Assembly: GCA_021432635.1 (NCBI GenBank) | Contig: MU270098.1 | Span: 124,001 to 188,000 of the forward strand | Origin: Thozetella sp. PMI_491 | Lineage: Eukaryota > Ascomycota > Sordariomycetes > Chaetosphaeriales > Chaetosphaeriaceae | Reading direction: 5' to 3' | Length of the DNA stretch: 64,000 bases | In this document: one piece after another, positions 12,856-41,701 of the stretch | Position numbering within the stretch: position 1 is the first letter of the stretch | Layout of the letters: each line of letters begins with the position of its first letter | Made by a program: the position numbers and the translations under genes | The notes under the pieces: generated by a model | The model's database searches: none | Told to the model about the DNA's origin: nothing | Seen by the model: only the letters and a program-made list of their open reading frames with translations

Positions 12856-15268
12856 TGGGTGATACCTAATAGCTTCGATCAGTGGGTTCGAAGATAGTAG
12901 AGCTGCATGGTGGTGCCCTACGGATCGTCCGAGCCATCGAAATCCACGATTGCATCTATCCCTGTCTTCTCTTGGCCGAGTGGGTGGGTGAAGGGCCGTT
13001 GCGGGTTCCTTAGCCGCATGCGTGAAAGCACAGAGTCTGAGTGGCGAGGCATTGAGTCTGAGTGGAGAGACATCCAGCTTGATGCATCTGCACCATCTAG
13101 AACACCTAATGCATGCGGAGGTGCAGTAGCGTGGACTTGGCTGGCCACAGCAAAGGGCTGTCGGTTTCCAACTCTTCCACGGCTAGGCTCCGAAATGTTG
13201 ACCATCGCGGAGAAGCAATCGCAGAGGAGGGCTAAAGAAGGATGGTGAGTTGTAAAGATGCTAAATGGCGACCGTAGTCTAGCGAGTCGCTCCTTTACCG
13301 CTATTATTGTTCTTACAGTGTCTGGTCAGCGGTGGCTGAAGCAGACGAGGCACTTTCTCAGGTCGATTCCGGAAGGATTTTGCGGGTCGCTTTAGCTACG
13401 TTACAACTAAACGAATATTACAAAGCGAATACATGCTACATTGTCAAAGTAAAACTGGGAAGGTAAAGCAGTAATCCCAATGCACGGCCGTCTTCTGCTA
13501 CGCCTCAAGACTGGTCTATGTACGCATTGGAGTGGGGGCAAAACAGCAGTCCAGGCAGCAGGCACAGAGACTCTAACCCAGTATCCCCAGCACGCTGATG
13601 ATCCGCTAAAACCACAGGAAAATCGTGACATATGCAGCCATTTCAGGGATCGCTAATCCCAATCTCAGACCTCGGGTTCAGATCTCATCAGCATTTGACT
13701 TGCACTGTCCAATTTTTGGGTTTCCTTTTTTTTAATAAGAAAAAACCCCCTTTCCCCCCCCTTAGCTTGAATAAATTTAGCTTAATAATGCTCTATTCTA
13801 TTGCTCGGGGGTCGGAAAAGTCTTACGAGCCCTCGCACAGACCCCCGAGTAGCTCTGCATACTCTATGACTTGTTTTGTCTAGCGCCGGCATTGACAGTA
13901 GCGCCCGCCTTGGCAGCAGGCTGCTTATTTTCGCCTTCATCAGACCCTCATTGGCCCTCGCGACTTATTAACAAGGCTGCCTTAGCATGCAGCTACCTGC
14001 CTGCCAGCTGTACAGCCGCTGAAACGTAGAGCGTATCCTTAAGGGATCACCAAAAAAAACCGGGCCAGGGATCAGCCAGCGGCTCGATGCAGAGTGGGGG
14101 GGTAATGTGGCGTGCGTCGAATCGTTCGATGTTGACGTATGTCACGTTCACCGGGTTGGACGGGAGCATAGGAAAATGCAGGAGAGAACTTTTGCTAGCC
14201 TCGGTAGTAGGCGCAGGAGCGCCCGCCGCCTCCATGCATAGCCGTCGCAGCTTCTAGACTCCTCTTACGGCTCTCTACTCTCGGCTTCCTGTTTATGTCC
14301 GTCCGCCCCTCCGACAGGGTATGTATTTGGGATAGGCGCAAAGGATGACTACCAGGAAAGCTGAGCCGCAATGAAGCTGATCTGCCCGAAGCTCACACAC
14401 TTTGTCCAGTCCGAGAACCTCCGGCTGAGTCCGAGGACCTACGAAAGCGTCCGAAGAAGTCACCGATGACTACTGAGAGCCAGGTCTGGATAATACTTCC
14501 GGCTCCCGGCACAATGCGACGACGTAAGCTTTTTCTACAAGGACAGGGAGTGTTGTCACCTGTTGAGCTTTCAAGTCCTAATACCACGTTACGCCGGCAG
14601 CTGGTATCATATCACACTCATGCGAGTCGGCATCATTTTGATTCGCATAGGAAGGTAGCAGCTATCATGTCCACGCCCTTGTCAATGTAGAAACGCATTT
14701 TTGTGTTTAATTTAGTTGCAACATCTGCGTTTCTAGTGTGTTGATGATCAGCGAGCTTCCCTGCAAGGATGGAGTTTATCCGCGAGCTTGGTTCATGAGG
14801 TCAAGAAGACAAAGGGTAAATTGCGGCGCAAATCTTTTAGAATACCGCGGCCTGTACCACAGACTAAATATACCGCTTGTAAGCCTATAGAGACCTATAG
14901 AGCCCTATAGAGTCCCTGTAATTTATAGTTTGGGTAGACCTAGTACCATTTCACAGTGGTGTATGAAGGAGCCTAGTGTACAGTATCAGCTGAGGATGAA
15001 ATGTCTGGGTGACATACGGGATCATATCTCAACTGGGTAGACTGCTTTCTAATTTCTCCCCATGGGTCACGGTCTCCCTCATCTATGACATCCATTTCCC
15101 CTATAATTTTCCTTCAATGTCTCTTCTTTGCATCTTCTGCTCTGGATGAAATATACAGATCGGAACGACGTCAACAGGGAAATAAAAACGCTTTGCCGCC
15201 TTTAGCCTTTTTGCCGCCGTTGGCTTTTTATCTCTAACTCACGTTGACTGGTTATTTTCCATTCCAAG
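12856..15268. other. Gene-free intergenic region
   Basis: About 2.4 kb between the MFS gene and the methyltransferase. Only short open frames without recognisable motifs are present. It holds poly-A/poly-C tracts near 13726-13761 and a short tandem repeat at 14884-14912. It presumably includes the MFS promoter (left) and the methyltransferase promoter (right). Confidence 0.6.
14884..14912 (+). repeat. Three 9-bp CCTATAGAG direct repeats, 10-bp spacing
   Basis: The unit CCTATAGAG occurs at 14884, 14894 and 14904, followed by a further partial match (TTTATAG) at about 14921. It sits 350 bp upstream of the methyltransferase start. It could be a small array of binding sites or a transposon relic; the sequence does not decide. 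Confidence 0.7.
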
Positions 15269-16507
15269 ATGGCTGAGACAGAGCAACCGATGCCTCCTCC
15301 TTCCCTCCAGAGAGATGATAGTGTCACCAGTCAAGCAGGGGGACAATATGTGCAGTCGACGAGCCAAGATTGCAATGGGGCGGTGTTCCTGCCTGATCCA
15401 CTTGGAGTTCTTGCTAGAATAAATGACAACTTCGAAGACGCAGCGACCCTGAAAGGCTTCATAGACTACTGGAGTACTGTAGCTCCTAAGCTCCAGCAGC
15501 TTCTCCTTTCGTACCTGAACGGGGCATTCAAGACAATGGGCGTAAGCCTCAATACTCTTCCACAGGGTGCACTCATCCCGCCGGTCAATTACCTTCCCAA
15601 GCACGAAAAGGTTTTGAAGCGACTCTTCGAAATCCTCGAGGATGCGCAGTGCGTTTTGTATCAAGACTCTAGTTACGTGCGGCACACTGCGCCTCTACCC
15701 TCTGACGGCGACTCGTCTCAGCTTCTCGATAGCTTCGTGGCCAACCATCCTCGCTTCGCGGTGGACGCTCGCATGATGGCCGTCACCGGACCCTGGCTGG
15801 GCGAGTGTCTAACGGGCAAGATAGATCCGTTGTCGCTCATGTTCCGGGATCCTGCGGCATCGCAGGTGCTTGCGGACTTCTACCTTCATTCGCCCATCTT
15901 TGCCACGCTCACGGAGCACATGATCTCGCTGCTGGGACCAATTCTGAACGGCATCGACTGCACCGCCGATCACCCGCTCAGGATCTTCGAAGTCGGTGCA
16001 GGTCTGGGCGGAACCACTTCACGGCTGGTCGAGTTTATCCAAGCAATGGCCGTTCCCGTCGAATACACATTTACAGACATCTCCCCATCGCTTGTGTCCA
16101 AGGCCAGCGTCAAGTACGAAGCACATGCGGATTGGATACGTTTTATGCCATTCGACATGGAGAAACCCGTGCCGGAGACGCTGGTTGGGAAGTATCACGT
16201 CGTGATTAGCACCATGGCCGTCCATGCCACCTCCAGCCGGTCGAAATCCTGCTCGAGGCTTTACGAACTACTTGCTGACGGAGGTTTTGTCATACTATCC
16301 GAAGGCACGCAGCGCATTGACTGGTACGATATCACATTCGGTTTACTGGAAGGTTGGTGGCTATCTGGTGACTACGCACTTCAACCGGCTCATGTCTGGA
16401 TGCAAGAGTTCAAGAAGGCTGGGTTCCAGGAATGCGGTTACTCATCCGGCCCGAGCCGCGAGGCAAATACACAACAGTTGCTGGTAGCGTGGAAGAGGTT
16501 TCATTAA
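15269..16507 (+). CDS. Stand-alone C-methyltransferase resembling the NR-PKS CMeT domain
   Basis: SAM-dependent methyltransferase, single exon, 412 aa, no signal peptide. Residues about 60-175 match the N-terminal lid region that precedes the catalytic core in NR-PKS CMeT domains (PPVNYLPKHEKVLKRLF, then AVTGPWL). The core has motif I EVGAGLGGTT (241-250), FTDIS (268-272), VHAT with His319, SEGT with Glu345, and FGLLEGWWL (357-365). His319 and Glu345 match the His-Glu pair known from citrinin-synthase CMeT. There are no KS, AT or ACP sequences on either side, so this is a separate gene and not a PKS fragment. The nearby PKS has no CMeT of its own, so action in trans on the ACP-bound chain or on the released product is a reasonable inference. 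It could also be a free small-molecule methyltransferase. Confidence 0.9.
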   Translation: MAETEQPMPPPSLQRDDSVTSQAGGQYVQSTSQDCNGAVFLPDPLGVLARINDNFEDAATLKGFIDYWSTVAPKLQQLLLSYLNGAFKTMGVSLNTLPQGALIPPVNYLPKHEKVLKRLFEILEDAQCVLYQDSSYVRHTAPLPSDGDSSQLLDSFVANHPRFAVDARMMAVTGPWLGECLTGKIDPLSLMFRDPAASQVLADFYLHSPIFATLTEHMISLLGPILNGIDCTADHPLRIFEVGAGLGGTTSRLVEFIQAMAVPVEYTFTDISPSLVSKASVKYEAHADWIRFMPFDMEKPVPETLVGKYHVVISTMAVHATSSRSKSCSRLYELLADGGFVILSEGTQRIDWYDITFGLLEGWWLSGDYALQPAHVWMQEFKKAGFQECGYSSGPSREANTQQLLVAWKRFH

Positions 16508-17896: not shown

Positions 17897-19151
17897 ATGG
17901 ATACCATTCTGGAGCAGCTTTCTACCTTGGCCGCGCAGGCGGATGAATCGGGCCGTCGTAAAGTGATCGATTTCATCTCCAATCTGCAGCTGAAGTTGGA
18001 AACGCCGCGTGATACACTGAATCGATTTTCGGGCATGGTAAGTCGAGAAGAATTCGTCCTAGTTGGCCTAGTCTCTCACACTCAGAGCAGCACATGAACA
18101 TTGCGGTAACTCGGATTGCCGAGGACCTCAATATCTTCCAGATCTTGGCCGCGAGCGAGCAGTCCCTAGAAGTTGGAGCGCTAGCAGCAAAAACGGGCGC
18201 CGCGCCCAAATTGCTCGGTCAGTTGGCTCATTCCTCGGCTTTAGTGACTGTGCCGCTGACCACAGGACTCTAGGTCGCATCTTGCGTTACTTAGCCTCCG
18301 TCGGGTTGGTTCGCGAGACCGGTCCGCATACCTTCGCTTCCAATGCTCAGACCAAGACATTGGCGCAGCCCGGCTACCGTGGCGCCATCTACAACTTCTT
18401 TGACAACCGAGGTCCTATCATGCAGGCCTTACCGGACTTCCTGGCCGAGACAGGCTATCAGGACCTCAACAGCTCGACCAACACGCCGTTTCAGAAGGCA
18501 TTCTCGACAGATCAGCCGCTCTTCGTGTGGCTACAGACCCAGCCTAAGCGTCTGGAATATGCTCAACAAACTATGTCGGTGAAGGATGAGGGCGTGGTGC
18601 CTTGGTTCACAGTCTTCCCTTTCGAGATGGAGCTTGGCAGCTTCGCCGGGCCACATGTATTCGTTGACGTCGGCGGAGGGTTCGGTCAACAGTCGGCTCG
18701 GTTGGTCAAGGCCTTCCCCCAGCTCAAGGGAAGAGTTGTGCTGCAGGATTTGTCTCAGACCTTCGTTATTCTGCCCGCACAGCCTGAAGGGGTCGAGACC
18801 ATGGTCCACGACTTCTTCCAGCCACAGCCCGTGAAGGGAGCAAAATTTTACTACTTACGAAACATCATGCACGATTGGCCCGACGATCAATGCATCACCA
18901 TCCTTAAACTGCTTGTGCGAGCGTTTGGGCCAGACTCCCAGATCTTGATCGATGAGATGGCCTTGCCTGAGCAGGGCGTTCCTTGGGAGGCGACCACGCT
19001 TGACTTGGGCATGATGTCATCTCTCGGCGCCTGCCAGCGCACTACTAAGGAATGGCATGCCTTGCTTGATGCTGCGGGTTTGCGTATCCTACGCATCGAT
19101 GCATACGTACCTCGCACTTTCGAATCCATTATCCAGGCTGTTGCCAAATAG
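17897..19151 (+). CDS. COMT-type O-methyltransferase
   Basis: SAM-dependent class I O-methyltransferase of the plant COMT/AflP-like fold, expected to methylate a phenolic hydroxyl. Exons 17897-18037, 18091-18217, 18274-19151; 381 aa. The N-terminal winged-helix dimerisation part (LGRILRYLASVGLV, split by intron 2) is followed by SAM motif I VFVDVGGGFG (about 218-227) and the catalytic-His region NIMHDWPDDQC (His289), with the usual post-motif acidic EMALP stretch. Length and motif order are normal for the family and nothing is broken. It is the last intact gene on the right side of the PKS cluster and probably a tailoring enzyme for its product. Confidence 0.93.
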
Positions 19152-26814: not shown

Positions 26815-29800
26815 TCATTTGAGCAACTTCAAGGCCATATCGATCATAATCTTGGCTCTGTCTCGATCACTCTTGCCACTATCCTCAAAGACATCGCTCA
26901 GTGGGTCAAACGAGTCCCACACCTGGATGAATTTGTTGTTGGTGATCGCGCCGAGTCTGCTGAAAGCTGCCTTGATGCCAGCTTGTTCGGCGAGCTTCTG
27001 CACCTCAATCGGATTGATAATGCGGAGATTGTCGTTCCCGCTAGCTCCTGATCCGTCGCTGGACGTTGCAAGACACAAGGCTCCCGCCTTGACGCAGTAG
27101 ATAATGGTTGCTGCGAGGCCGGCCGCAAGCGCCGTAGCGACGCTGGAGCCCGTCGATGACTGGAGTGTCCTGGCCTTTTCGGGGAGGACATACTGGCTCG
27201 TGCTTCCCAGGGCTTGTACAACCTCAACTCCGGGGAAGATGAAGTCCAGGTCACCCTTGGGGCCCGCAAAGGAGAATATGGTGCCGTCATCGCGGGCAGC
27301 GCCGATACGGAAGAACTTTTCGCGGCGGTGGGCTGTGGGGTAGTCCTTGTCCGTAAACTGGCCGTGGTCAGGGGAAGAACAAAACATGGTGATGTTCCTG
27401 TTGTAGGCCTGCTGGAGGACGTCCGTGAAGTCGGTCCTCTCCGGGTCGCTCTCTGCCGGGACTGGTACGGTCCAAGACATGGAGATGATGCTCGCGCCCT
27501 TGTCTATAGCGGCTTGGAGAGCCTGACGGAAAGCAAAATGTCATGTCAGTTAACTCGGCTCATTTCGTACTTTCTGGCCCCTCGAAAATGGAAGAGAGAA
27601 GAGGGATGCGAGCGAGTGAGACGGAAAACTTACGCTAATGACAGACTTAACCACGATCTGGCTCTTCCCCTCCGGATTGTCGATACTCTGCAGCCGGATA
27701 GGGTAAATCTTGGCCATTGGGCAAACTCTTTTGATCATGCTCGCCATGACTGTGCCGTGCCCCTTCTCCGAGACGAAATACGGCTGCTGCCGGCCATGCG
27801 TATAGTTGAAGCTCGCGCCGTCTAGCACATGGCCGTCGATCGAAGGGTCGAAAGGGTCGACCCCATCATCGATGAGGGCTACGATGACGTCCTTCTCCAA
27901 GCCGCTACCCGTACCCCGCGACTCGACATACTTGTCTCGCGTGTCGTCCCAGAACTTTTTGAGGTGTGCAGCAAATCTGTCCGTGCACTTGAGCCACTGG
28001 TGCGAGGTGATGTCTTGCGAGGCTGCAGGGCCAGGAGCGGCTCCTCGCTCTTTCGTCGCGACCTTGCGCTCCTCGTTGTTGCCTTCGAGGATCTTGAAGA
28101 CCTCGACGTGGGTTTTTACGGGCGAATCGCTAGCCGTCTCTATGGTACTCTCGTCATCTGCCTGACTCGGCGCACTATTGGAAGGTTTTTTCCCTGGAAG
28201 GACGAGCGTGCTCGCTCTATGGGCGTCGATGTTTCGGTTGAGCCGTGTCTTGAATTCCTCAACCCTAGCACTGATCCAGGTTTCCGAATCATATGTCTGC
28301 TACCCAGGTTAGCCGTCGGCACCGTATGCCTCTGTTTTGCTTTGGGGCTCACTCGCCTCTGCAGGGATGTGGAGGTGGATCTTTTCAAGCATTGGCAATG
28401 TAGACAACCCTTCCGGCTCGCTCCAGGCTCGAAGGATTACGTTATTGCCGCTCCATCGAAGAGTCAACTCTCTTAGTGGGTTAAGGACGGGTCTGGCTCC
28501 AGCGGCACCATCTATCGCTGTAGCTTCCTGTATTGCCTTGCTGCCCACTCCACATATGATGGAAGGATCCAGGTCGGCCTTTTGCCAGTCGAGGTGCTCT
28601 ACTGTAATCTTCTCCAGACATTCCTTGATGGCCTCTTCGCTATGGGCGGTACTTCCGGTATCGTCCACAGAGACCTTGATGATATGACGGACGCCTTTGG
28701 CGTACAGCCAGTCAAAGAAGAACTTCATGTCGCGACGTCCACGTCGTCCCGGAGGGTTCTCCTTTGCCTGCCGGCCGCCGAGCTGCACGGTCACCTGCGG
28801 AAACGAGACGAATTGGAGGACCTCATCGAACTTGAGCCGGTCTCCTTGGCCTTTTCCAAAAGTCTTCTTGAATGTTTCGCCTTTAATCTGGAGAGGAAGT
28901 AGGTCGTAGTCAAAGCAGACCTGTCTGTCTGGATACGTCAAAGCGGACACTTAGCCAGCCGAATGGGGACGAAAGCGGTTACACAAGTAATGGAAAGGAG
29001 TAATTTTACCTTCAGGGTTTTTGCCGTAGAGGAACGAGATGGCAGACTCGGTCTTTCTGGTCCTCAGGTAATGCAGTTTGAGCTCATGAAGGATCCGCTC
29101 GGAGTTTCTGGCCAGTGTCTGCGGACTGGGCTTCTCGCTCTTCTTCTTTACTACCTTCTTCTTGGGGTCGCCAATGCCGTCCATGCGCGAGGTTGAGGAT
29201 CTTTTGATAGATGTATTCGGCGGGGTCTCGGTATTCGCGTCCCCGCCGGCTGCCGGTTGGGCCACCTGGCCCTCCTTCTGCTGTATTTCATTCGACTCAG
29301 AATCGTGTTCCTGTATAATCCTCTTGCCGGCATCTCTGAACTTGGGTCTGTTTGCCGACTGTTTCTTCCCCTCCGTCTCGCCATCAAGGGCCTTTTTCGG
29401 GTTAACCTCGCGAGGCTGAGCTACGTCGCGCGCGCTTTCGCCCACGAATTCGGGTCCGAATTTGCCCTGGTGCTTTGGGTCGACCTGCCTGCCCCTGTCC
29501 TTTGGGTTAGTTATGGCGGTACTCCCCTGTTTCCCTGAGGGGTCTCCGACGTCGCCCTTCTCCGACCTCTTCCTCCCCTCGGCTGGATCTCCGGCTTTTG
29601 CCTTGGATTTCAGCAAATCTAGGTACAGCTTTGCGGTATGCTGATGCTCCAGATATACGGATCGCTCAACCATGCTGTCCAGGAATGTCTTGATCGGCCT
29701 CTGTAAATTATCCTTCCTCAGCTTCGCGATGGCCTTTTGGTCTCGTTGGATGAATCGAGCAATAACGTCGGTCCTGTCATCACCGCACTGGCTATATCTC

Positions 29801-30444
29801 ACCGCGTAATGGAGTGGCGTCTTGTTGGCGGCGTCTGTGGCTTCCAGAGCCGTGTCATCTGCGTTATCGATGAGCATTTTGGTTATCCTGGCGCGGAGAT
29901 CCCTCTCGAACGCGATGTGTAAGCATGTCTTTTTCTCGCCGTCCCTACAAGGGTTTGCAAGTGCTCGGGCGACAACCGACTTGTCAAGACAGCCTTGTAG
30001 CATGTACTCGACTAGCTTCCATTGCTTTTCCAAGATCGCCAAGTACAGGGCGCTCTGTCCTTTCTCGTCTTCGTCCTTCAGTAGTTTGGGGTAGGTGTTG
30101 AGTAGGCGCTTGACGAGGATCTCCATGTTGGCTGCTTTTGCTGTCGGAGACTTGACTACCTCGACGACTTTGTGCAGCAACGTCCCAGCATCTCCTTTCC
30201 AATCAAGGACCTCCCCGAACTCCCGGAAAAACCTGTTGACACCTTCGGGCGTCTCAATCTCGGATATCTTCCAGAGTGCGTTCTGAGCACGTGCGAAGAG
30301 CTTGCTAGGAGACATGTCCTGCTTGGCCGAGGGCTCTCCCCCGTCGTCGACTTCGTCGTCGTCGTCCTCTTCCTCTTCCCCATCCCCGCCATCGTCATAC
30401 TCATCGTCCTCTGGGTCCTTTCTGTTTTCATAAAATTGCGGCAT
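26815..30444 (-). CDS. Ankyrin-repeat protein with C-terminal subtilisin-like (S8) protease
   Basis: Predicted intracellular serine protease, with no signal peptide. Exons 30444-29010, 28928-28357, 28296-27634, 27522-26815; 1125 aa. It starts with an acidic Asp/Glu tract (about 11-36), then ankyrin-like repeats (about 85-260, e.g. GQSALYLAILEKQWKLVEYM and NKTPLHYAV), a charged linker, a middle region of unknown fold (about 480-670), and a subtilase domain with Asp812 (VALIDDGVD), His849 (KGHGTVMAS) and Ser1017 (TGSSVATAL). The triad is complete, but the place of the oxyanion-hole Asn reads CSSPDHG, so activity is uncertain. Intron 2 (28356-28297) fits only as GC-AG (donor GCGAGT, branch CTAAC). 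The acceptor of intron 1 could also lie 20 bp upstream. S8 domains are known as effector modules of fungal NLR-like proteins; the head-to-head neighbour and the NACHT-ankyrin gene nearby fit such a role. Confidence 0.9.
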
Positions 30445-31315
30445 GGTGAAGCAGCTCCAATGCGCGTGGTTGCGTCGGTGAGAATACCTGGAGCAAGTTT
30501 AGGAGATCCAAGAAAAGCTGGTGAAGTAGTTGGAGACTCGCTCTCTTGTGTCGGGAGGCTGTGTCTCGTGCATGTACGGAGTACCTTGGTGACCTGTCGC
30601 AAGTGCGGGCGGCCGGCGTTCCCGTCCACAAATGGCGGCACCCCATAGCTACCAATCTGTAGCGCGGAGCCTCGTTAACCGTTCTTGGTCGTCACTGCAA
30701 CACAGTGCGCCATTACCCTGGTCATTTTGCGCAGTCTGGCACAATGGCCCCCACCGACCCCTACACCATCGCGCAAGAGGTTCACCTATAAGGACAGCGA
30801 TCAGGCGGAGGAATGTAGCCACTCCTGATGCAGTCATCAACCAACCCCCCCTTTATATGCAGGCCACCGCCAGCCCTCTTCATGAGATTGCCACCAACCT
30901 CAGCTGAAAACATTTAGCGTGGTTCTGAATGAGATGCTCGATGCTGATTTGGGCTTGTCGAAGTGCCTCTGTCTTGCATCTCAGCTCTAGCATCTATTGA
31001 GTTAGCAACAACCTATACAATAGACAAACGACAAAATATCTCAGGTTTTTGAGGGGTTTACCCACTTATGTGGGCTGGCTGATCTTCTTCCTTGTCGGAG
31101 AGTGTCGCTACGCGGGCTGGGGGCGGTTGAGGTCCCTGTATTGTCCCCTGTTACCCCACCTTCAGCCTCGTTATACTAAGGAGGTAACCCCCCTTTGATC
31201 GACTGCTCACAGCCGGGTGACCAGCTATTCATTGCAACTCGTGTTCCGTCTTCAATTCGAATCCGCCGTTCTCAGACCAAATCCAAGCCCTCGGGAATAA
31301 TCCTCGCCGCCAGCC
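30445..31315. promoter_or_regulatory. Bidirectional promoter region of ankyrin-subtilase and coiled-coil genes
   Basis: 870 bp separate two ATGs that point away from each other. No gene lies between them. Co-expression of the two divergent genes is a reasonable but untested inference. Confidence 0.5.
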
Positions 31316-32857
31316 ATGGCCGACATACCGGAGCACAAGGCGAAGAAGACGGATCCCAATCTGGAGGGTATCGAGCTGGACGACGATGTCGAGGTCTTCG
31401 ATATTGGCATGTTTGAGGGGGGCGCAGAAGGTAGCGGCTTTCACATGAAAAACAACCCCAAAGACCCCTACCAGCGAAAAAATATGATAGAGCGTACAGG
31501 AAGCGTCGACATCAGGGTCGCTCTTGTCGACGTCGTCCATGGATACCTTTCGACCGAGGATCTGGACTCCTGGGCCACTCTCATGGTCATATTGATTCGC
31601 TTCGATCCCCAGAAGAATGCGCGCCGTGTCGAAGAAGCAACCATTGAGCTAACATTCGGGGCTCAAAACCCAAACGACTATACACCGGAGGTGGTGAACA
31701 TCTCATTCAACGGACACTACAGCTTCCTTCCGAGCGAGCAGAAGGAGACAATCGTCAAGAGCGTCGACGGCAGCATCGGCGCCAGCTACGGCGCCGACGC
31801 GAAAGTCGAAGCCAAATGGGAAAAGACGGCCGAACGACAGACGACAGACGCGACTACCATTAGCGGCGGAATATATACGGTCGGTGGCGTGGAACCGAAC
31901 CGTGTCGCTAAATGGACTCTGCTCGAGAACGAGACGCTCAACACAGGCGTCCCAGCAACTGTACGAGTGGGCGTGCTGATCAAGAGACTGGACGAAAAGG
32001 TCTTCACTTGCATGCCAAAGCTCAAATGCAAGGCGGACAAATGGACATCGGTGGAGACTGTCTTCTCAAAAATTCCTAAAGATGACCCTGTTCTCCTGAA
32101 GCCTGATGCCAAGGCCACGAATAAACTGATGGTGTACGATCTTGAGAATCTGGAGAAAACGCCGTTCGATAAGCTTAGTGATGTCACCTTCACAACCATG
32201 ATCGCCGATGCCCTCAAGACTCACCAGCAGCCTACCAGCCAGGGATCCCAGGCTGGTTCTGCCAAAAAGGCAGTGGCGGGTGACATCCCAAAACCTGCAC
32301 CGACACAAGCACCGGGCCAGCCCGCGCCAAAGCAATACCTGCCAACCCAGCCTGCGCCAGCATCGTTCGTGTCGACGCAGGACGCTTCTACGCAACCCAC
32401 TCCAGCACGTTCCTTACCGGCACAATCCGCTTCAGCGGCGCCGCTCATACCCGCGCAACCTATCCCAACACCTAATCCAACTTCGGAATTTGAGGACCGA
32501 CCTAGCCCGCTGAACACCCAGCCGCCGACGAGTCCTGATCAAGCCGTACCAGCGCACCCGTCGATCGAGACGGTGACGAAAGCACCATCTGACGACTTTC
32601 CTCCGTCTACTTTACCGCCCGATTGGAAGGAATACGTCGAACAACGCCTCCAAAACATGGAAAAAGCATATAACGACAAGCTTGCAGAGGCACATCAAGC
32701 ATATGCCGAGAAGCTAACTACCGAGTTGGCAGCGTCGCGTCAGGCCTTCCGCGACGATATGGCAGTCCAGATGACTACTTTAACCAGTCAATTTGATCAG
32801 TCCATTGCTCATCTCCAGGCCATAGCTGACCAGATCCGTCAGACTTGGAGCCGCTGA
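31316..32857 (+). CDS. Fungal protein of unknown function: beta-rich domain, Pro/Gln linker, coiled coil
   Basis: Single exon, 513 aa, with no signal peptide and no membrane segment. Three parts are visible. Residues about 60-300 alternate hydrophobic and polar residues as in a beta-sandwich and contain the landmarks DIRVALVDVVHGYLS, VVNISFNG, a glycine-rich GSIGASYGADAKVEAKWEK, and WTLLENETLNTGVPATVRVG. Residues about 300-435 are low-complexity Pro/Gln/Thr/Ala. Residues about 440-513 are heptad-rich and should form a coiled coil. I recognise the N-terminal part only as a type recurring in fungal hypothetical proteins and assign no function. It is divergently paired with the ankyrin-subtilase gene and 0.8 kb from the NACHT-ankyrin gene. 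A scaffold or oligomerising partner is a guess. Confidence 0.85.
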   Translation: MADIPEHKAKKTDPNLEGIELDDDVEVFDIGMFEGGAEGSGFHMKNNPKDPYQRKNMIERTGSVDIRVALVDVVHGYLSTEDLDSWATLMVILIRFDPQKNARRVEEATIELTFGAQNPNDYTPEVVNISFNGHYSFLPSEQKETIVKSVDGSIGASYGADAKVEAKWEKTAERQTTDATTISGGIYTVGGVEPNRVAKWTLLENETLNTGVPATVRVGVLIKRLDEKVFTCMPKLKCKADKWTSVETVFSKIPKDDPVLLKPDAKATNKLMVYDLENLEKTPFDKLSDVTFTTMIADALKTHQQPTSQGSQAGSAKKAVAGDIPKPAPTQAPGQPAPKQYLPTQPAPASFVSTQDASTQPTPARSLPAQSASAAPLIPAQPIPTPNPTSEFEDRPSPLNTQPPTSPDQAVPAHPSIETVTKAPSDDFPPSTLPPDWKEYVEQRLQNMEKAYNDKLAEAHQAYAEKLTTELAASRQAFRDDMAVQMTTLTSQFDQSIAHLQAIADQIRQTWSR

Positions 32858-33684
32858 TACAGCGAGCGGTAATCACCAGACAAGCATATGGTGTCCTTCA
32901 TTTGTATCCCTTTCGCGAGAGCAGATATGTCCGGTCTCGGGAAAGAGGCACATAGTTCAATGCTAAGCAATTATTACTGTTTCTCCGGGATTGCGATGGG
33001 CTACTAAGTGTTCATTTGTTTGGCCTCGTGCACTCATGGTTCATTATACAATGATGCGCCGTGTAGTAATGATTCGTCCTCCGTAGCCAGCGCACCAGGT
33101 TCCTCCCAAAGTAACCTTGCGAACATGGCGCGGCTTGTGGAAGGCCAAGGACAGCTCACTTCTTTGAACTTTTTTTTAGCACTGTGTACATGCTAAGTAC
33201 TTCCCACAGACGCGCTTACTAATTCTGCAAGCAGCAATTACGTAGTAGTTTCCGGCCCTTGGCCCTTTGATAGCTGTTCCGTCCCCTGTCCAAGAAGCCC
33301 CTCGACCGGGGTCTGGATGGGGCGGGCCATAGGACGGCTGCCCCAGGGCTATGCTATTTCGGCTTAGATTTGCCAGAGGCGCGCGAAGAGCTGACACGCC
33401 ATCCGCGAGAGCTAGCTCTCCCTCCAACCTCCAACCTCTGCGCAGTGAATACCGTCGGTTTGTTTGTGCATTCTACAGGATTTGCCGCTCGCTTTGAGTA
33501 CCCGCCGTCTTCACCATCCTTTTCGTCACTACTCGGATTCCTTGAAGCCTCAGTTTGCTGAGAAAGCTAGACTGTTACGGCTGTCAAATAATGAGCTGCG
33601 TGCTCCAAAGACCTTAGCGCGTGAATGAGGTCGATCATCACCGTCCCGCCGCACATCTGTCTGATCCGCGAATTTTAAACAAGC
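32858..33684. other. Intergenic region upstream of NACHT-ankyrin gene
   Basis: 0.8 kb without a recognisable gene. It contains the presumed promoter of the large plus-strand gene that starts at 33685. Confidence 0.6.
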
Positions 33685-36600
33685 ATGGAGAAGGACACAG
33701 AGGAGAACGATGCTGGTTCGGCAGCCGAGCGCCGACCAGACTCTCTTGAGTACGACAGAGCGCCGTCTGAACTCGGCGAGAACGACGACGATGCCCGCAG
33801 CACTTCAACCCGGACAAGCGATCTCTTTTCAAGACCCGCTTCACCGTCGATTCAGTCAGAGAGGCAGAAGAAGCCCAATGGCGTTGGCCTAAAAATCAAC
33901 GATCAGCGTTATACGTCAGAATATGCTTCTTACGAGTAAGTAAGAGGAGAAGCACACATTATTTGCGGTTAAAGTACTGACCTTTGGCAGTGTCATCACC
34001 GTCCACGGCATACGGGATGACCGAAGTACGGCATGGAAGACCAAAGCGGGAGAATGGTGGGTAAGCGAAAAGCTCTTTAGGAGCGTGAGCTACTACATTA
34101 GGGAGATCAACTTCTCCTACGAGATTGGCGAGCATGCAGATATCTTCAAATCAGATGGTATTGCGAAAGAGGCACAGACTCTCCTGAATGAATACACCGC
34201 CATGAGATTTCGGCTCGAAGAAGACGACACGAACCGTCCTGTCATCTGGATCTGTCACGACATTGGAGGGACGATCGTAAAGCAGGCTCTCCTTCTGGCC
34301 GCCATGAACCCCCAACTCTACGGGAAGATTGCGATGTTGACGACTTCAATCATATTCCTTGGCTGTCCGCACCGAGCCCATTCGGTTCTGCAGCTCGAAG
34401 ATGAGCTGTATCACCTCTTAACCCTACCGGGTCCCGAAATAAAGCAGGGAATTGTCCAGACGGTCGGGAGTCTTGCCCGACAGGTCACCAGCGTGAATCA
34501 CCGTTTCTCCGAGACAAAATTGAACTGTCGCGCGTCCATAATTAATATTCACAGTCTGAAACCTGGGAAATATTTGAGGAACGAGAAGACTGAGGACACA
34601 AAGCCGCAGTCTGCCGATGCATACGAGAAGGGCCCGGTGGTTTCCGGAGAATCTACGATTCCAGCAGGGGAGAAAGGTGCCGACCACTCGTCGGACATTA
34701 CAGAAGGCCGGCTATCAGGTCTGCCCGACCTTCCGGCTGACAAAGTCCAGACGGAAGAGGCGGAAACGAAGCTCAGGGAAGAACCTGTCGCAGAGCAGCC
34801 CAAGATAGAGAGGGACAGCTTGGTAGATAAAGCACCTGTGGAATCCGGAGAGGCCCCTGCTTCGGAGAAAGAGCCGGAATCTCTTGTGATAACACCATTC
34901 CAGAAATACACAGTATTGATGGGGCATCCCTTGGAGACTTGGTCCCGGTACCGGTTCCAGGGCAACCATCTCGACCTTGTCAGAGGGTACAATCCAGGCG
35001 ACGAGGACGGTTCCGACTGGGTCTCTTCATACGGTGGCCAGATTAACGAGGCCGGATTGCGTAAGATCCCCATGCTCGTCTCATATCCAAAATAACTGAC
35101 AACATTCCGGCTTTGCCTAGTTATTGAGGTCGACAATGAACTCATCCCGTATGAAACCATCCTCCTTTCACTCGCGCCCCCCAGACGAACAGCAAAAGTA
35201 GAGTTCGATGCTCGTCTCCCCAAGCATCCATTCATAAAATGGATTCACGGGCAGGAAGCGTACAAACAATTCCAAATGTCCACTTCCCCGAGGATACTAT
35301 ATTTGCACGGCCACTCGGAAAGCTCTATCGGCGAGCTGTCACAGAGGCTGTATCTCGATTATGATTTCGAGGCAATAGACGTCCAGGATGACCCTAAAAT
35401 GTCCGTCTTATATTTCCAATTCGAGAAGCGGGACAGCAGATTCAACAATATTCGAAGCATGCTTGTCACATTCCTGAACGACATCATCTGGCATTTCTGG
35501 AAGGACCTCCGGGGTCGAGTCCTAGAGACATTCCGTCTCCTTACCTACTATGACTCTTGGTCATTGGACGATCTGTATAATGCCCTCATTGGCCTGAGGG
35601 ATTGCAAGGAGCTCCAGAGGCTTACCTTATTTATCGGCTGTTTTGACGAATGCGACGATAAAGAGCGGCAATGGTTTCTCACGCGCCTTCTGAAGTCACA
35701 CAGCTACAGTGATCAACTATTCAAGGTTATTATATCGTCGAACCGGCTTGATGATATAATCTCAGGAAACATTCCGGCAACCTCGACTCTCGACGTGACT
35801 CAATGCCGAGTGCAACAGGAGGAACAGAAGACAGCGTCAAAAATGCAGATCGAAGAGCTCGAAAGGGCCATGGCTAATCTTGTGCAACGGCGTCCCATGT
35901 TCAAGCAGTTCGATGGCCTGCTCGCAGAATTGATTAGCCAGTGCAAAGGTGCCGTACATATTGGACAAGCAATCATTGCTTGGCTCGGCTTTTACAAACG
36001 CGGATCTCCGACGGCCGAGATGGAAAAGACTATCCGAAAGCTTTTCCCTGTCACGCCACAGAATCTTGTCAAGGTCTTCACTGAGTCTCATGATCCAGAA
36101 AAGGCTGCCCGCGCAAAGAGCATCTTCTACTGGGTGAAATATGCAGAAGAACCTTTGACTCTAGAGATGCTGGCCCAGGCGCTAGCCCTAACTATGTCAC
36201 AAGACGAGCCGTGTCTCGTGGATGTCGACTACCAGGATCTCTGTCATGATATCGAGCGGCTGTTCGGTGGGCTGGTGTTCGTGGACGGACGTGATATCAA
36301 ATTCTTTCACGATTCGATCTACGACCTGGCAGACCTGGATCTGACAAAGAGTCCGGAGGACCAATCACCAGATATTCACAGGCAATTGGCTGAAACGTGC
36401 CTTCGTTGCCTGCTCTCGAAAGATGGCGTGGAGATGCTTTCTGCTCTATCGATAGAGCGCTACGGCGCTGCTCCGGACGCCACGCCGTTAATGCTTCCGC
36501 GGTCCAACTTCGTCGATTACGCGGTTCGCTTCTGGCCTAGGCATTATATACTAAGTAGAGAGAAGGCGCCGGTCGAACTGGTGACGGAATTCTTCCATAA

Positions 36601-39600
36601 CAAGGACGCGAGGAATGCATGGGCTGAGGCACACTACGTCACGTCTAACGCCTTCACTCGAATTCATCGGAGCTACATCTCATCTCTCCCCTACATGGCT
36701 GCGCTTGGGTTAGACAAGCTAGTTTCTCGTCAAATACAACTCGACAAAGACGAGCCGTCCTTTAATGAGGATTGTTGGCTAGCAATCGCGGAAGCTGCCC
36801 GACATGGGAACCAGACGATGGTGCTTTTGCTATTGGAGCACACGCGAGTTGACCAGACTCATCTCCGAGATGCAGTATATTGGGCAGCTTCGTACGGAAA
36901 AGGGGGGGCACTGGATGACCTAGTCGGAATCGCGCAAGGCATCAAGGACTTCCAGTGGCCCCAATACATTCTCTGCCGAGCTGCATCCGCGGGCCTCGAG
37001 ACGCTCATCTCGGCATTGGCACAATCCGGGTACGACATGAACGAGAAGGTCGGGTTTGGCGACTGGACCGCTATCGGCCTTGCCGTGCAATGCTACCAGG
37101 AAGGGGCAGTCAAGTTACTGCTGAAGTCCAATGTGGATCTGAGTCGAGGGGGCGGCGAAGAAACTACTCCCGCTATGGTAGCCGCCAAACTCGGTCACCC
37201 TGGCATCTTCAAGCTGCTTCTAGATGCGTCTTCTGGTCTCGAAGAGAAACATGGGCCGGGCAACGTAAAACTCGTCCGCACTACAGTAGCTTCTGGACGT
37301 CCGATGGCGCTCAACGTCCTCCTTGAGGCAGGGGCCGTGTTCAAAATTGGAGACGCTGAAGACTCGGAAGAAGACAATGAGCTTAGGATGCCAATCACTT
37401 ATGCTTCCGGAGCTGGCCACGAAGAATGCGTGCGTTTGCTGCTCGGGAAGGGGGCAGATGCGCGTGAGGAGTCCGATTTGGGAAACGCACTCTACTTTGC
37501 TGCTGAAAAGGGCCATCTCGAAATTTGCCGCATGCTGCTTAAAAACGGGGCGGACGCAAACAAGTCTCCCGAATCGAAGGAGATGCTTCTGTTGCAAGCC
37601 ATCTCTTCGGGGAAGCTCGAGTTGGTGAAACTGCTGATTGACGAGGGCGGTGCCCTAGTCAATGCTGTTGATACCAGCAGCACCACCAGTAACACGCCAT
37701 TGGCGCGAGCTGCCAGGGAATCCAACAAGGAAATCGTCGAGCTGCTGCTTGCTAAAGGTGCGCAAGTTAATTTAGACTTGCCAGGAGCTGAGAACCCTCT
37801 CTATGGGGCTGTTTATCAGGCGGATGAAGACCTTGCCAAACTCCTGATTGAGAAAGGTGCCAAAGTCAACTGGCGAGCGGAAGAGGGCAGCTGGGAGGCG
37901 CTTCATGCGTCCTATGATACGCCGTCTCTCGTGAAGCTTCTGCTAGAAAATGGCGCAAACATTGACAGCATGTCGAGGGACGGAACAGCGATGATGCTCG
38001 CCGCGAGATGGGACTTCCCGGAAAGCGTTAAAATATTCCTTGCGCACGAGCCCAAGCCGAACCTGGAGCTTCAGGTAGACAACCCGGACAGCACCGCCCA
38101 CACCTGCACAGCACTTCTGATGGCCTGCCAATCTGGGAAACCCAAGAGCGTGAGGTTACTCCTCGAAGCAAAAGCTAACCTGGCTCATGAGACGAGCGCT
38201 GGGGAAACCGCCCTGACGATATGTTTGAGCCAGGACGGCGACGAGGCTGAAGAGACGCTTAAGACATTGCTCGAATTCAGGCCAGACTTGGGCCGGAAGA
38301 ACAAGAACGGGGACACAGTGCTCCACAATATCCGGTTCGGCACCTCCGTGTCGCTCGTCAAGCTCCTGATCAAAGCGGGAGCCGTGGTTGATGAGCCAAA
38401 CGCAGATGGATACACGCCACTCGCCATGGCTGTAGATGAGGAGAATATCGCAGTCGCGCGGTATCTCATTTCTCAAAATGCCAACGTGAACGCCATCGGC
38501 CCCAAGTTCGGTAGCATACTCAGCATTGCTTGCAGCAAGGGCTCGCTTGACCTGGTCAAGCTGCTGTACGAGGCCAACGCAAATCCCAGTCGCGTCGACT
38601 TCGAATACGGTGAGTCGATCCTATACACGGCGCTCGGGCGATATGACTGCGCGAAAGTGGTGCGCTACCTGGTCGACGAGCGCAAGTTCGACGTTAATAC
38701 GCCAGGTGGACGTCTGGGCTACCCCCTCATTCGGGCGGCGTACGATCGCAGCACACCCATGGTGAAGTACCTGATTCGACGAGAGGCCGACGTCAACGCC
38801 GCAGACGAGCTTGGACGACGAGCTGCCCACGTCGCTGCCGCCACCGGGAACTCAGACATGATCGAGGTACTCATCAAGAAAAAGGCGGACGTGTATGCGA
38901 GAGACAAGTATGGCCGGACACCAGTACACTTCGCTGCGTCTGCGTGGGGCCCGAGGGGACTCGAGATTCTACTCGAGAAGGCACCGAAGGACTTTGATCC
39001 CAATCATGTTGACCAGGACGGCTGGACGCCACTCATGTGGGCCTGCCGGTGGAGACCAGATCAGTCCATGCTGGATCTCCTGATCGATAAGCACGGCGCA
39101 GACGTTTGGGCCAGGAGCCGCGACAACCAGTGGTCAGCCCTCACGCTCGCAAACTTCCACGACTGGGATTCCGATAGCAAGGCGAAACTGTCGCCTCCAG
39201 AGGACAAACGCGTCAGAATAGACAAAAACGGCAGCAAGCAGCTTTGGGACGAGTCGCAGCACAGGTCACGGGTAGGGGATGCAAAGGCTAGCAGTCCCTG
39301 CTGGAGTTGTTTGGAGGTCCGTGAAGCCAATTTACTCTTCCCCAGCCACCATTTGCTTTTTTTTTCTTTTTGTGTCGTTTGATCTCATGCAGACTAACAC
39401 TTCTGCTAGGCCATTCGCGGTACCATGTGGAAATGTAGTGATTGCCACGAGGAGGTGAGTCTCTGTTTCAAGTGCTGCGACGACCGCTCCACGATACACA
39501 GAGACCACCACTTTGAGGAAATCGGACCGATATACGCCCCCAGGGAAGCATCTCGCTCGCGGCCCGGCTCCGCAGCGACTGCGGCAGACGCCGCCGAGGA

Positions 39601-39706
39601 AAATGACACAGGGGAAACTCCCGAAGAAGACACTTCCGACGAAGAGGAAGTAATGGAGGAAGACGAGGCTGAGGAAGATGAGGAGGATGAAGAGGACGAT
39701 GATTAA
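33685..39706 (+). CDS. NLR-like protein: alpha/beta-hydrolase, degenerate NACHT, ankyrin array, ZZ finger
   Basis: Exons 33685-33935, 33991-35060, 35121-39316, 39410-39706; 1937 aa. Order: disordered N-terminus; an alpha/beta-hydrolase-like domain (VHGIRDD about residue 88, then WICHDIGGTIVKQAL with Asp174 where lipases have Ser); an acidic linker; an NTPase-like domain whose P-loop position reads LYLHGHSESSIGEL (about 500-513) without the GK[S/T] pair, with a Walker-B-like LFIGCFDECDD (about 609-619) and SSNR strand; a winged-helix-like part (YWVKYAEEPLTLEMLAQAL); a long ankyrin array of roughly 20 repeats (about 970-1800); and a ZZ-type zinc finger (CWSC, CSDC, CFKC, then HRDHH) that spans the last intron. 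The tail is almost pure Glu/Asp. The architecture follows fungal NLRs (effector, NACHT, repeats). The catalytic Ser and P-loop Lys seem lost, which suggests a binding or signalling protein. ATP binding is doubtful. Confidence 0.93.
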
Positions 39707-40159
39707 ATATAAGATAGAAATCCGGAGCTGGCATTGAGCTGGCATTCTTGTTGGCGTTATTGAACATGCTGCCTGCTATGCTGTAATGAAAAATTACTTC
39801 CTACAGCTCACTAAGCTTCTGGGCACCATACATTGCTCGAACACAGGCAATCAATCGAATGTGGCTCGGAGCTAGACTGAGAAGGAGGGGCGCAGCTCCA
39901 GGGTTGCGGGGCTCTGGCTGAAGCTTCAAGTCCGATACTTGCGGGAGCGGCGTATCCGTAAGCCTGCCACAGAGCGGGGCGGGGAAGATGGCAACCATTT
40001 GATCAAAAAGGATTCTTCTGATTTGTGACATCTTCTCTTTATTTGATGTCGAGCAAGGCGCGCCTTGTTCGCTGCCTTGCTATACCCAGCTGTGTCTCCG
40101 ATATTCTTCTATTCCTCGCACCCCCAAGCCGCATTAAACCTGGACATTGTCGTCCCGAG
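39707..40159. other. Intergenic region
   Basis: 450 bp between the NACHT-ankyrin stop and the F-box gene start. No gene is visible. An open frame continues upstream of the F-box ATG to 40025 but lacks an ATG there. Confidence 0.55.
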
Positions 40160-41701
40160 ATGAATCCGCTGAATCTTGCGCCGGAGATTACCCAGCACAT
40201 ATTTGATGCCTTTGTTCTATCGCGAGAGCTGTGGCGCGTGATGCGTCTCCGCTTGGTTTGCCGTATGTCTAATTTAGTTTGCCTGTCGCCGCTCATTGCT
40301 ATACGCTTCTAACCTAGGTCCCCTCCGGTAGGCGGGTTCAAGTATTACACCGACGACGCCATAGTCCGCCTTCGCCTGCTGCATCAGTTCGTCGGTACCC
40401 CGTACCACCTTGAATATAGCGGTCCTCCCCAGGATTTGACGCGACACCGACAGGCCTGGCGCGATTACCTCATGACATACCTTGCGCACCAAGCATGGAT
40501 GGAACGAGGCACCACGACCACTCTTGCTCGCATTTACCACGTCGCAGAGGCTCTTCGTGAGGACGCGGCTCATGACACTGTTCCGTCGTGTCTCATCCCT
40601 CTCCTCCATCAAGCAGCGAGGAATAGTTTCTTGCCGCTGGTAAAACACGAAGCCGACGAATTGTCGACTTGGCCTGACGATGAAATCGCAGCAGACATTT
40701 GCATCGCCGCCATTTACCTCAATCGGACAGCATATGTTGAGCGACAGATAGCACAGGGTCTACGTTTTGGGAATAGCCTCCAGACATGTGATGTTTCGAG
40801 CAACCTCTTTGGAGGGGCCTTGGTGGTAGCAACCTGCCGGGGCGACATTGGAATGCTCAAACTCTTGCTCTCGTCCAATCCCGACTACCAAGCCTCTCAA
40901 ACGTTAAGCTGGACCGACCTGAGTACTATTCTCTATGTGGCTGCTTGGATGGAACACAGAGATATTTTCAATTTTGGTTTTGGTAGTAAGCCGCTCACAG
41001 AGCCCGAGGCAATAGTGCGGTGGAGAGAATATCTGGACCAAGATGACCTTGAAGCCGTGGCCCTCTTGGTGCCTTGGGTTGATAGCCTCAAGCGCACTAT
41101 GGCCATGATCGGACCCGATATCATAATGTTCAATCCAAAACAACCAAGAGGCTTTAATGAACCATTTCTTAGGTCTATCGAGCTTGGCAACGTGGAGATA
41201 GTACGCTACTATCTTAGGCAGGGGGCGACGTGCAACCATCCTGGAGGACACCGAGATTTCGCCATTGTGAAAAATAGATATACCGAAAGATTTCAGTATC
41301 TCCTCCAAGCCGTTCAAAACAACGACGAGGCGGTAGCAGAGATCCTCCTCGATGCCGGTGCGGATCCCAATTGGTACCCGCCGACATTAACACCGCTCCT
41401 GGTCGCGGCGAAGCAAGGCAACATCGCTCTAGCGAAAATGCTCCTAGACCATGGAGCTACTCCCGACGAGGGGCAACCGCCTCCCATAGTGGCAGCAGTT
41501 TGGAAGGAGCATCCGGAAATGTTCTATCTCTTACGTGCGTACGGTGCGAGACTAGATACACCCGAGACGGGGGCCTGGGCCATGACAGTTGCGATGGCGA
41601 ATAGCCTTGACTCAATGGTGGATCTCTTAGTGCGCGAAAGTGTCAGCGTCAACGAGGTCCTGCATCGGGTTGACTTCGATCATTTCTCGTCAGTAGTCTA
41701 A
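40160..41701 (+). CDS. F-box protein with ankyrin repeats
   Basis: Two exons, 40160-40262 and 40332-41701; 490 aa. The N-terminus is an F-box (LAPEITQHIFDAF, then LWRVMRLRLVCRGFKYY across the intron), expected to bind Skp1 in an SCF ubiquitin ligase. The middle and C-terminal parts hold ankyrin-like repeats, clearest at LLDAGADPNWYPPTLTPLLV and AKMLLDHGATPDE, which would select targets. The intron acceptor at 40331 was chosen because the earlier one (40318) brings an in-frame stop. It is the third ankyrin gene in 15 kb and lies in the same direction as the NACHT-ankyrin gene. The link to that gene is positional only. Confidence 0.85.

Follow-up and report, generated by a model that had tools for sequence, protein, structure and literature searches.

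An ankyrin-subtilase, a protein of no recognised domain and an NLR-like protein recur together in Thozetella sp. PMI_491: a candidate fungal cell-death module

Introduction

Do adjoining genes for an ankyrin-subtilase, a protein of no recognised domain and a NOD-like receptor (NLR)-like protein form one system, and what might such a system do? The question is raised by the interval 26815..41701 of a 64,000-nucleotide stretch (the window) of Thozetella sp. PMI_491 contig MU270098.1, which corresponds to C84:124001-188000 in our contig numbering. An earlier note, made from the letters of the window, had described this interval as an island of three ankyrin-repeat proteins and one unknown protein, and had proposed that they act together as sensor (NACHT-ankyrin NLR), executioner (S8 protease), partner (the unknown protein) and turnover factor (an F-box protein). 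The four genes are called here A (S8 protease), B (unknown partner), C (NLR-like) and D (the putative F-box gene).

According to excerpts of the literature, S8 proteases activate fungal gasdermins encoded beside them (PMC10197012, PMC12881547), and the S8 protease HET-Q2 cleaves the C-terminus of HET-Q1, releasing a pore-former (PMC12881547, PMC10989679). Fungal gasdermins are reported there to lie beside S8 genes in approximately 60% of cases (PMC10197012, PMC10989679). Since they so often adjoin S8 genes, we took as the first hypothesis that B was a gasdermin. Recurrence was judged from paralogous loci inside the fungus's own genome (72.3 Mb in 157 contigs). Exon modelling covered the window genes alone, and sister loci were read as frames.

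Recurrence of the S8-B-NLR unit

Seven B-family loci were found in the genome, and the gene order S8-B-NLR occurred at six of them: the window (C84), C19a (763-771 kb), C20 (540-548 kb), C19b (272-282 kb), C6 (1258-1266 kb) and C5 (347-356 kb). This recurrence supported the idea of a coupled set of protease, partner and NLR. In all six units B was central, and the S8 and NLR genes were transcribed outward from it. B itself was oriented with the NLR gene in four units (window, C20, C19b, C5) and with the S8 gene in two (C19a, C6).

Linkage was seen from each of the three genes. The search with B returned B itself, C19:766828, C20:543363, C87:188381 and C19:277358; a C33 match of its Pro-rich part was taken as low-complexity and dropped. 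Queries with two further members returned the same five loci; a single weak extra row from each query (E=0.09 and 0.36) was dropped. Four of these five loci had an S8 match within 6 kb, for which the probability under random placement was approximately 1.4e-7. Starting from the S8 genes, we fetched four loci at which no B was known (C6:343, C125, C6:1265893, C5:355561): one had a gasdermin, one had neither, and both with an A-like layout had a remote B relative directly upstream (C6:1265893, profile E=5.7e-10; C5:355561, E=1.5e-12). For the NLR, a search with C's STAND region retrieved seven non-self rows. The best three (C19:769315, C20:540003, C6:1258109) started 2.5-3.4 kb from B gene starts, and the other four lay on contigs without B; the B gene near C6:1258109 had itself been discovered from the S8 side. 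An NLR neighbour by chance is no rarity in this genome, but it is rare for the three nearest relatives of C to lie beside B.

Identities between units were 15-37% for B, 25-41% for the C-terminal half of the S8 protein and 18-25% for the NLR STAND region. Distance matrices of the six units were correlated for B and S8 (r=0.72; 10 of 720 permutations as high), B and NLR (0.69; 21 of 720) and S8 and NLR (0.45; 53 of 720). An ancient block duplication, after which the genes stayed linked, would fit this pattern.

Several observations weigh against a single inherited unit. NLRs were very abundant in the genome (294 first-look NPHP3_N candidates, of which 150 were scored, with at least 151 matches), so that a single NLR neighbour means little; by a hand estimate, approximately 5% of genome points lie within 6 kb of an NPHP3_N candidate. 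The S8-NLR distance correlation was weak, and the linkage could persist through block duplication alone. The NLRs of C19b and C5 were absent from the STAND relatives of C. The hydrolase domain of C found 23 non-self rows. Only two lay near S8 genes of A's kind, and these did not rank among the top matches: C5:349846 (row 13 of 24) beside B, and C5:1577205 (row 24) beside a lone S8 gene. At C19a, C20, C6 and C19b the hydrolase part was read by eye from the elbow and surrounding motifs, followed at C19b by a STAND-ankyrin frame. The STAND frame of the C19a NLR held one TGA, possibly due to an intron, possibly to a defect. Ankyrin matches of the C6 and C5 S8 genes fell below Pfam cut-offs. Exceptions were found on both sides of the pairing: the B gene at C87 had no S8 gene in the 8 kb read and no S8 match on its contig; C5:1571, an S8 gene of A's kind with A's middle region, showed no detectable B gene over the 11 kb that were read; and C25:101199, sixth among the loci with an A-like S8 part, was an NLR locus without B. 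Taking both sides together, we consider it very probable that A, B and C form a single functional unit, inherited together.

Contig C19 carried two of the units. Approximately 25 kb of it (C19:258-282 kb) held an S8 match, the candidate gasdermin C19:266022 and one complete S8-B-NLR unit.

The S8 proteases

Gene A matched Pfam Peptidase_S8 (E=4e-18) and Ank_2 (E=8e-9) and contained the motifs of the Asp/His/Ser triad (IDDG, GHGT, GSSVATA), which bore out the prediction of an S8 protease on an ankyrin protein separate from the NLR. Triad motifs were present in all seven S8 genes checked, that is, the six units and C5:1571. With an S8 domain bearing these motifs and Ank_2 repeats adjoining it, A resembles HET-Q2-like (Q2L) proteases. 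It had no gasdermin neighbour; it was flanked by B and a fatty-acid desaturase gene, and the gasdermin searches gave no candidate on contig C84. Ankyrins of the B-linked S8 genes scored above a Pfam cut-off in four of the six units (window, C19a, C20, C19b).

The S8 search of the genome gave 102 rows, which were merged into 78 loci. The loci read were the six units, C5:1571 and seven others (C6:343, C125, C95, C96, C66, C131, C65), some of them partly. A gasdermin lay beside the S8 gene at C6:343, C131 and C65, and neither B nor a gasdermin was found by profile in the stretches read at C125 (upstream included), C95, C96 and C66. A weak gasdermin candidate, C66:179033, lay 10.3 kb from the C66 S8 gene, beyond the stretch read. 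When loci were ranked by likeness to the S8 part of A, five of the seven best were B-linked, the exceptions being C5:1572 (third) and C25:101199 (sixth); among the loci with A's middle region, four of five were B-linked. In all three frames scanned without visible ankyrins (L041 3011-5014, L060 5276-6058, L057 3856-4728), DUF7580 preceded the protease, and a gasdermin was present at two of these three loci. In an S8 tree of 13 rows, one branch (82/99) parted the six B-linked from two gasdermin-linked rows. We did not lean on this tree, because 61 of 500 shuffles did equally well, only one of ten inner branches was well supported and branches were long.

At C5:1571, where Pfam detected no ankyrin in the S8 gene, a dienelactone hydrolase-like gene recognised by eye (L064 2512-3354; C5:1575.5 kb) lay between the lone S8 gene and a hydrolase-like NLR frame. 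Within C5:1571-1577 it occupied the place where B would be expected. C2H2-like zinc-finger genes, also recognised by eye (L056 207-1955; L057 2-1594; L059 89-2213 and 6351-7649), were located near three of the four S8 genes having neither B nor a gasdermin (C125, C95, C66); these are possibly a third S8-linked family, or merely an abundant one.

The B family and the gasdermin hypothesis

Protein B had a conserved core (approximately residues 20-300), a Pro-rich linker (22.5% Pro, residues 306-425) and an Ala/Gln-rich C-terminus that looked helical by eye; a secondary-structure estimate was too crude and weak to be used. Neither Pfam, NCBIfam, PADLOC nor PDB returned a significant match, and the reading of B as a known domain was rejected on that basis. 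None of the seven family members matched a Pfam inhibitor family. The tails differed among members: almost nothing followed the core in C19a and C20, a Pro-rich and then Ala/Gln-rich tail was present in the window, and the tail was acidic at C5. At C87, the B core (frame L039 2847-4556) continued into a DUF6594 match below the cut-off, and the hydrophobic remainder of DUF6594 followed in the next frame (E=9e-17). C87 is a probable B-DUF6594 fusion, which hints at membrane action. With one B member as the query, 28 pattern-matching stretches were obtained from bacteria and archaea and none was confirmed, a result that is silent on other fungi; with the window B, no plasmid relative was confirmed.

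The gasdermin hypothesis was examined with controls from the same genome. The neighbour of another S8 gene (L041) led to a set of nine gasdermin relatives, whose profile found RCD-1 (8jyz; E=2e-22), the HET-Q1 pore (9uv9; 7e-17) and the bacterial gasdermin (bGSDM; 7n51; 2e-4), so that the test works on this genome. Five of the nine also matched PADLOC bGSDM. A five-member gasdermin control, the size of the first B set, reached RCD-1 at 1e-16, and two disjoint gasdermin sets matched each other with a probability of 100% (E=2.6e-39). B queries of one, five and seven members found no gasdermin in PDB at E<=10, and the five- and seven-member profiles matched nothing. The profile-profile probabilities of B against gasdermin profiles were 0.9%, 0.4% and 0.1%. 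Since the single, hand-joined L041 gasdermin sequence also missed RCD-1, single-sequence failures mean little and the profiles were relied on. At the sequence level, B as a gasdermin was rejected.

An adjoining S8 or CHAT protease gene, the usual though not universal neighbour of gasdermin genes, was nevertheless present at six of the seven B loci. For comparison, candidate gasdermins of the genome gave 19 rows; after two rows of one gene were merged, one at E=0.69 was dropped and C6:342374 was added, 18 remained, some of them weak. Twelve of the 18 lay within 10 kb of an S8 match.

Degenerate sites in the NLR-like protein

Gene C encodes the STAND NTPase domain and C-terminal repeats of a fungal NLR (NPHP3_N, a STAND NTPase family, E=5e-8, 33.6 bits against a cut-off of 24.8; Ank_2, E=5e-98). 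The NPHP3_N match upheld the NACHT-like domain of the earlier note as a domain; an active NTPase is doubtful, because the Walker A motif of C is degenerate. All six NLR-side proteins matched NPHP3_N (35.3, 52.4, 47.5, 50.4, 58.2 and 60.9 bits), with scores under 76.3 bits, the lowest among the matches listed genome-wide. The Walker A lysine was lost in five of six units (window, C19a, C20, C6, C19b) and kept at C5:349 (GRSGSGKS). An intact P-loop was also seen by eye in one unrelated NLR at C25 (L063).

The hydrolase-like N-terminus proposed for C had no Pfam match in C itself. Of two sister frames scanned, C5:1577 matched Abhydrolase_6 just over the cut-off and C5:350 fell under it. The nucleophile elbow, which usually carries Ser, read CHDIGG in the window, AHDIGG in C19a, AHNIGG in C20, GHDIGG in C19b, GHDLGG in C6, AHSLGG in C5:350 and AHGLGG in C5:1577. 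Among these seven proteins the residue was Asp in four, Asn in one, Gly in one and Ser in one (C5:350). P-loop lysine and hydrolase serine were kept together in the frame at C5:349/350, and C and four of its five sisters lacked both. These replacements (Ser to Asp in C, and serine gone in four of five sister units) supported the suggestion that the NLR's hydrolase is dead. Asp can serve as the nucleophile in other alpha/beta hydrolases, such as epoxide hydrolases. Because of this, Asn and Gly forms are judged from the motif to be probably inactive, and Asp forms no more than likely to be so. A ZZ finger had likewise been proposed; its cysteine pattern could be seen by eye in C, but the Pfam match (ZZ_ADA2, E=0.011) was below the cut-off.

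Gene models and neighbouring genes

The interval contained the four genes and no further likely gene between them (open reading frames of at least 120 amino acids), and Pfam confirmed ankyrin repeats on A, C and D (for D, on a provisional model), both as the earlier note had stated (Table 1). On the minus strand, the exons of gene A are 30444-29010, 28928-28357, 28296-27634 and 27522-26815. Its second intron was read as a GC-AG intron rather than damage because the paralogues of C19a and C20 (L037, L038) lose frame at the same protein position. A frameshifted pseudogene was set aside, since the GC-AG intron yields an open model.

Table 1. Positions of genes and sequence features in the window.
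Feature	Position	Strand	Genome position	Description
Gene A	26815..30444	-		Acidic N-terminus, ankyrin repeats, conserved middle region, S8 subtilase; 1125 amino acids, 4 exons
Second intron of gene A	28297..28356	-		Inferred GC-AG intron; starts GCGAGT, ends TAGCAG
A/B intergenic region	30445..31315	.		Shared by the divergent pair; 871 bp, from gene models
Gene B	31316..32857	+		Single exon, 513 amino acids; one of seven family members found in the genome
Gene C	33685..39706	+		Hydrolase-like, degenerate STAND/NPHP3_N, ankyrin array, ZZ-like finger, acidic tail; 1937 amino acids, 4 exons
Nucleophile elbow of gene C	34253..34270	+	C84:158253	Hydrolase-like domain; CHDIGG (Asp for usual Ser)
Walker A position of gene C	35297..35332	+	C84:159297	LYLHGHSESSIG, no GK[ST]
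Gene D	40160..41701	+		Ankyrin protein adjoining the unit, judged non-member

The final model of gene D (exons 40160-40262 and 40332-41701; 490 amino acids) differs in one splice from the provisional model that was scanned. The F-box ascribed to D was not found by Pfam in that provisional model (E<=1 for the first 70 residues, E<=0.1 for the whole); the sole match of the first 70 residues was MerR (E=0.16). The three relatives of D were located at C14, C42 and C19:941, none of them at a unit, and D was rejected as a fourth member of the set.

At the left end of the window there was an apparent secondary-metabolite cluster, with polyketide synthase frames (KS, AT, DH, ACP, TE) and two methyltransferase frames at 87-5391 (-), 15248-16504 (+) and 18072-19148 (+).

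Proposed function and alternatives

The best overall explanation, to which we give about an even chance, is a non-self-recognition or regulated-cell-death module of the fungus, made up of A, B and C, in which the protease acts on B, which would be an executioner or a partner but no gasdermin, and the NLR, largely inert, is a regulator. By its position, B is a candidate substrate and executioner of A. In the mechanism that we propose, the ankyrin-S8 protein would be an intracellular, HET-Q2-like sensor-protease whose ankyrins sense a target. It would then cleave B, probably in the variable tail, and so free the conserved core, which would be the executing and perhaps membrane-acting part. B would thereby occupy the place of the gasdermin in known S8-gasdermin pairs. 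By analogy with HET-Q2 and HET-Q1, a protease that is sensor plus activator and a B that is the executioner are the more likely roles, and a conserved core with a variable C-terminus would suit a cleavable or targeting tail. Cleavage of B by the protease, as a mechanism, falls just short of an even chance in our judgement. The NLR-like protein most likely acts by binding, as a scaffold, decoy or brake, and not by catalysis. Going further, we suggest tentatively that B may have founded a second, non-gasdermin family of protease-activated executioners, possibly pore-forming, in a unit with an ankyrin sensor-subtilase and a mostly ATP-binding- and hydrolase-deficient pseudo-receptor NLR lineage.

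The roles of A and B could also be reversed, with B an inhibitor or chaperone that restrains the ankyrin-S8 protein, and the S8 protease the executioner, freed when B is lost or displaced, perhaps via the NLR. The triad motifs of every S8 gene checked imply that toxicity may lie with the protease itself, equally tight linkage would be expected of a protease and its inhibitor, and B sits between S8 and NLR in every complete unit. Such a brake is nonetheless unlikely, given that the C87 B core, without an S8 gene in the stretch read, runs into DUF6594 with its hydrophobic C-terminal part, that the C5:1571 protease has no detectable B, which would be expected to be harmful were B an obligate brake, and that the family matched no Pfam inhibitor. 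Rather less probable is that B is a gasdermin diverged past sequence recognition and the pair an ordinary fungal gasdermin/S8 module. The neighbour is of the same kind (S8, often with ankyrins), the core is of similar length (approximately 290 amino acids), and the best B match to the nine-member gasdermin profile, although short, fell in a Gly-rich, hairpin-like stretch of both. With a four-member gasdermin set, however, that best match moved elsewhere, and the profile-profile probabilities of B were far from those of the gasdermin control; a gasdermin profile of only five members reached RCD-1, whereas B profiles of five and seven members reached nothing.

The least probable of the alternatives, to our mind, is that the three genes travel together solely as a duplicated block, with unrelated functions. 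It predicts the correlated distances of the three proteins across units, and NLR and S8 matches are very numerous in this fungus. Against it, the linkage outlasted the divergence of B and of the NLR STAND region to the low identities given above; B stayed in place even though its orientation differs in two of the six units; and the neighbours past the S8 gene differ where seen, with a fatty-acid desaturase gene in the window and an ABC transporter-like frame at C6. A protease acting on B, within a module regulated by the NLR, is the reading that we prefer.

Significance and comparison with known systems

In excerpts of the literature, fungi are described as pairing a protease with a gasdermin in their protease-gated death modules (PMC10197012, PMC12881547, PMC10989679). 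If our reading is true, the S8-B-NLR unit would be a parallel module with a different partner and an inactive-site NLR, which would suggest that the protease is a general activator open to coupling with various effectors. B is a family without a recognised domain and suited to functional study, and the C-type proteins would be naturally occurring pseudo-NLRs with which the ATP-independent role of an NLR could be studied. No description of an S8-unknown-NLR unit was found in the excerpts searched (PMC10197012, PMC12881547, PMC11138114, PMC9815663, PMC10989679, PMC12258605), which does not establish its absence from print.

The nearest likeness is to HET-Q1/HET-Q2 and the fungal gasdermin-S8 (Q2L) clusters, which, as far as the excerpts describe them, also have an ankyrin-S8 protein adjoining a protein with a core of approximately 290 amino acids, in a small dense cluster with several copies per genome. 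Unlike HET-Q1, the partner B is not detectably a gasdermin, and an NLR-like third gene lies on the other side of B in all six units. Within this genome, the gasdermin-linked S8 frames scanned for architecture carried DUF7580 (two of two), whereas the B-linked S8 genes carried ankyrins (four of six above the cut-off). Bacterial gasdermin-protease operons (bGSDM) likewise place protease and effector genes side by side in a defence context, but B had no confirmed bacterial or archaeal relative with one member as the query, nor a plasmid relative with the window member.

On the NLR side, NWD2/HET-S, PNT1/HELLP and a three-gene cluster of Chaetomium globosum resemble the unit in having receptor and executioner adjacent in two or three genes, according to an excerpt of PMC12881547. 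No HeLo/HELL domain was reported by Pfam in A, B or C, amyloid motifs not having been searched for. The S8-B-NLR unit differs from these NLR and amyloid-signalling clusters in its protease and in the loss of the NLR P-loop lysine in five of six units. The domain order of C is that of SesB-like hydrolase-NACHT-ankyrin NLRs, some of which have treble-clef zinc fingers including ZZ (an excerpt of PMC12258605, a Sordariales survey); C and four of its five sisters are set apart from these by lacking the P-loop lysine together with the hydrolase serine (GHSxGG).

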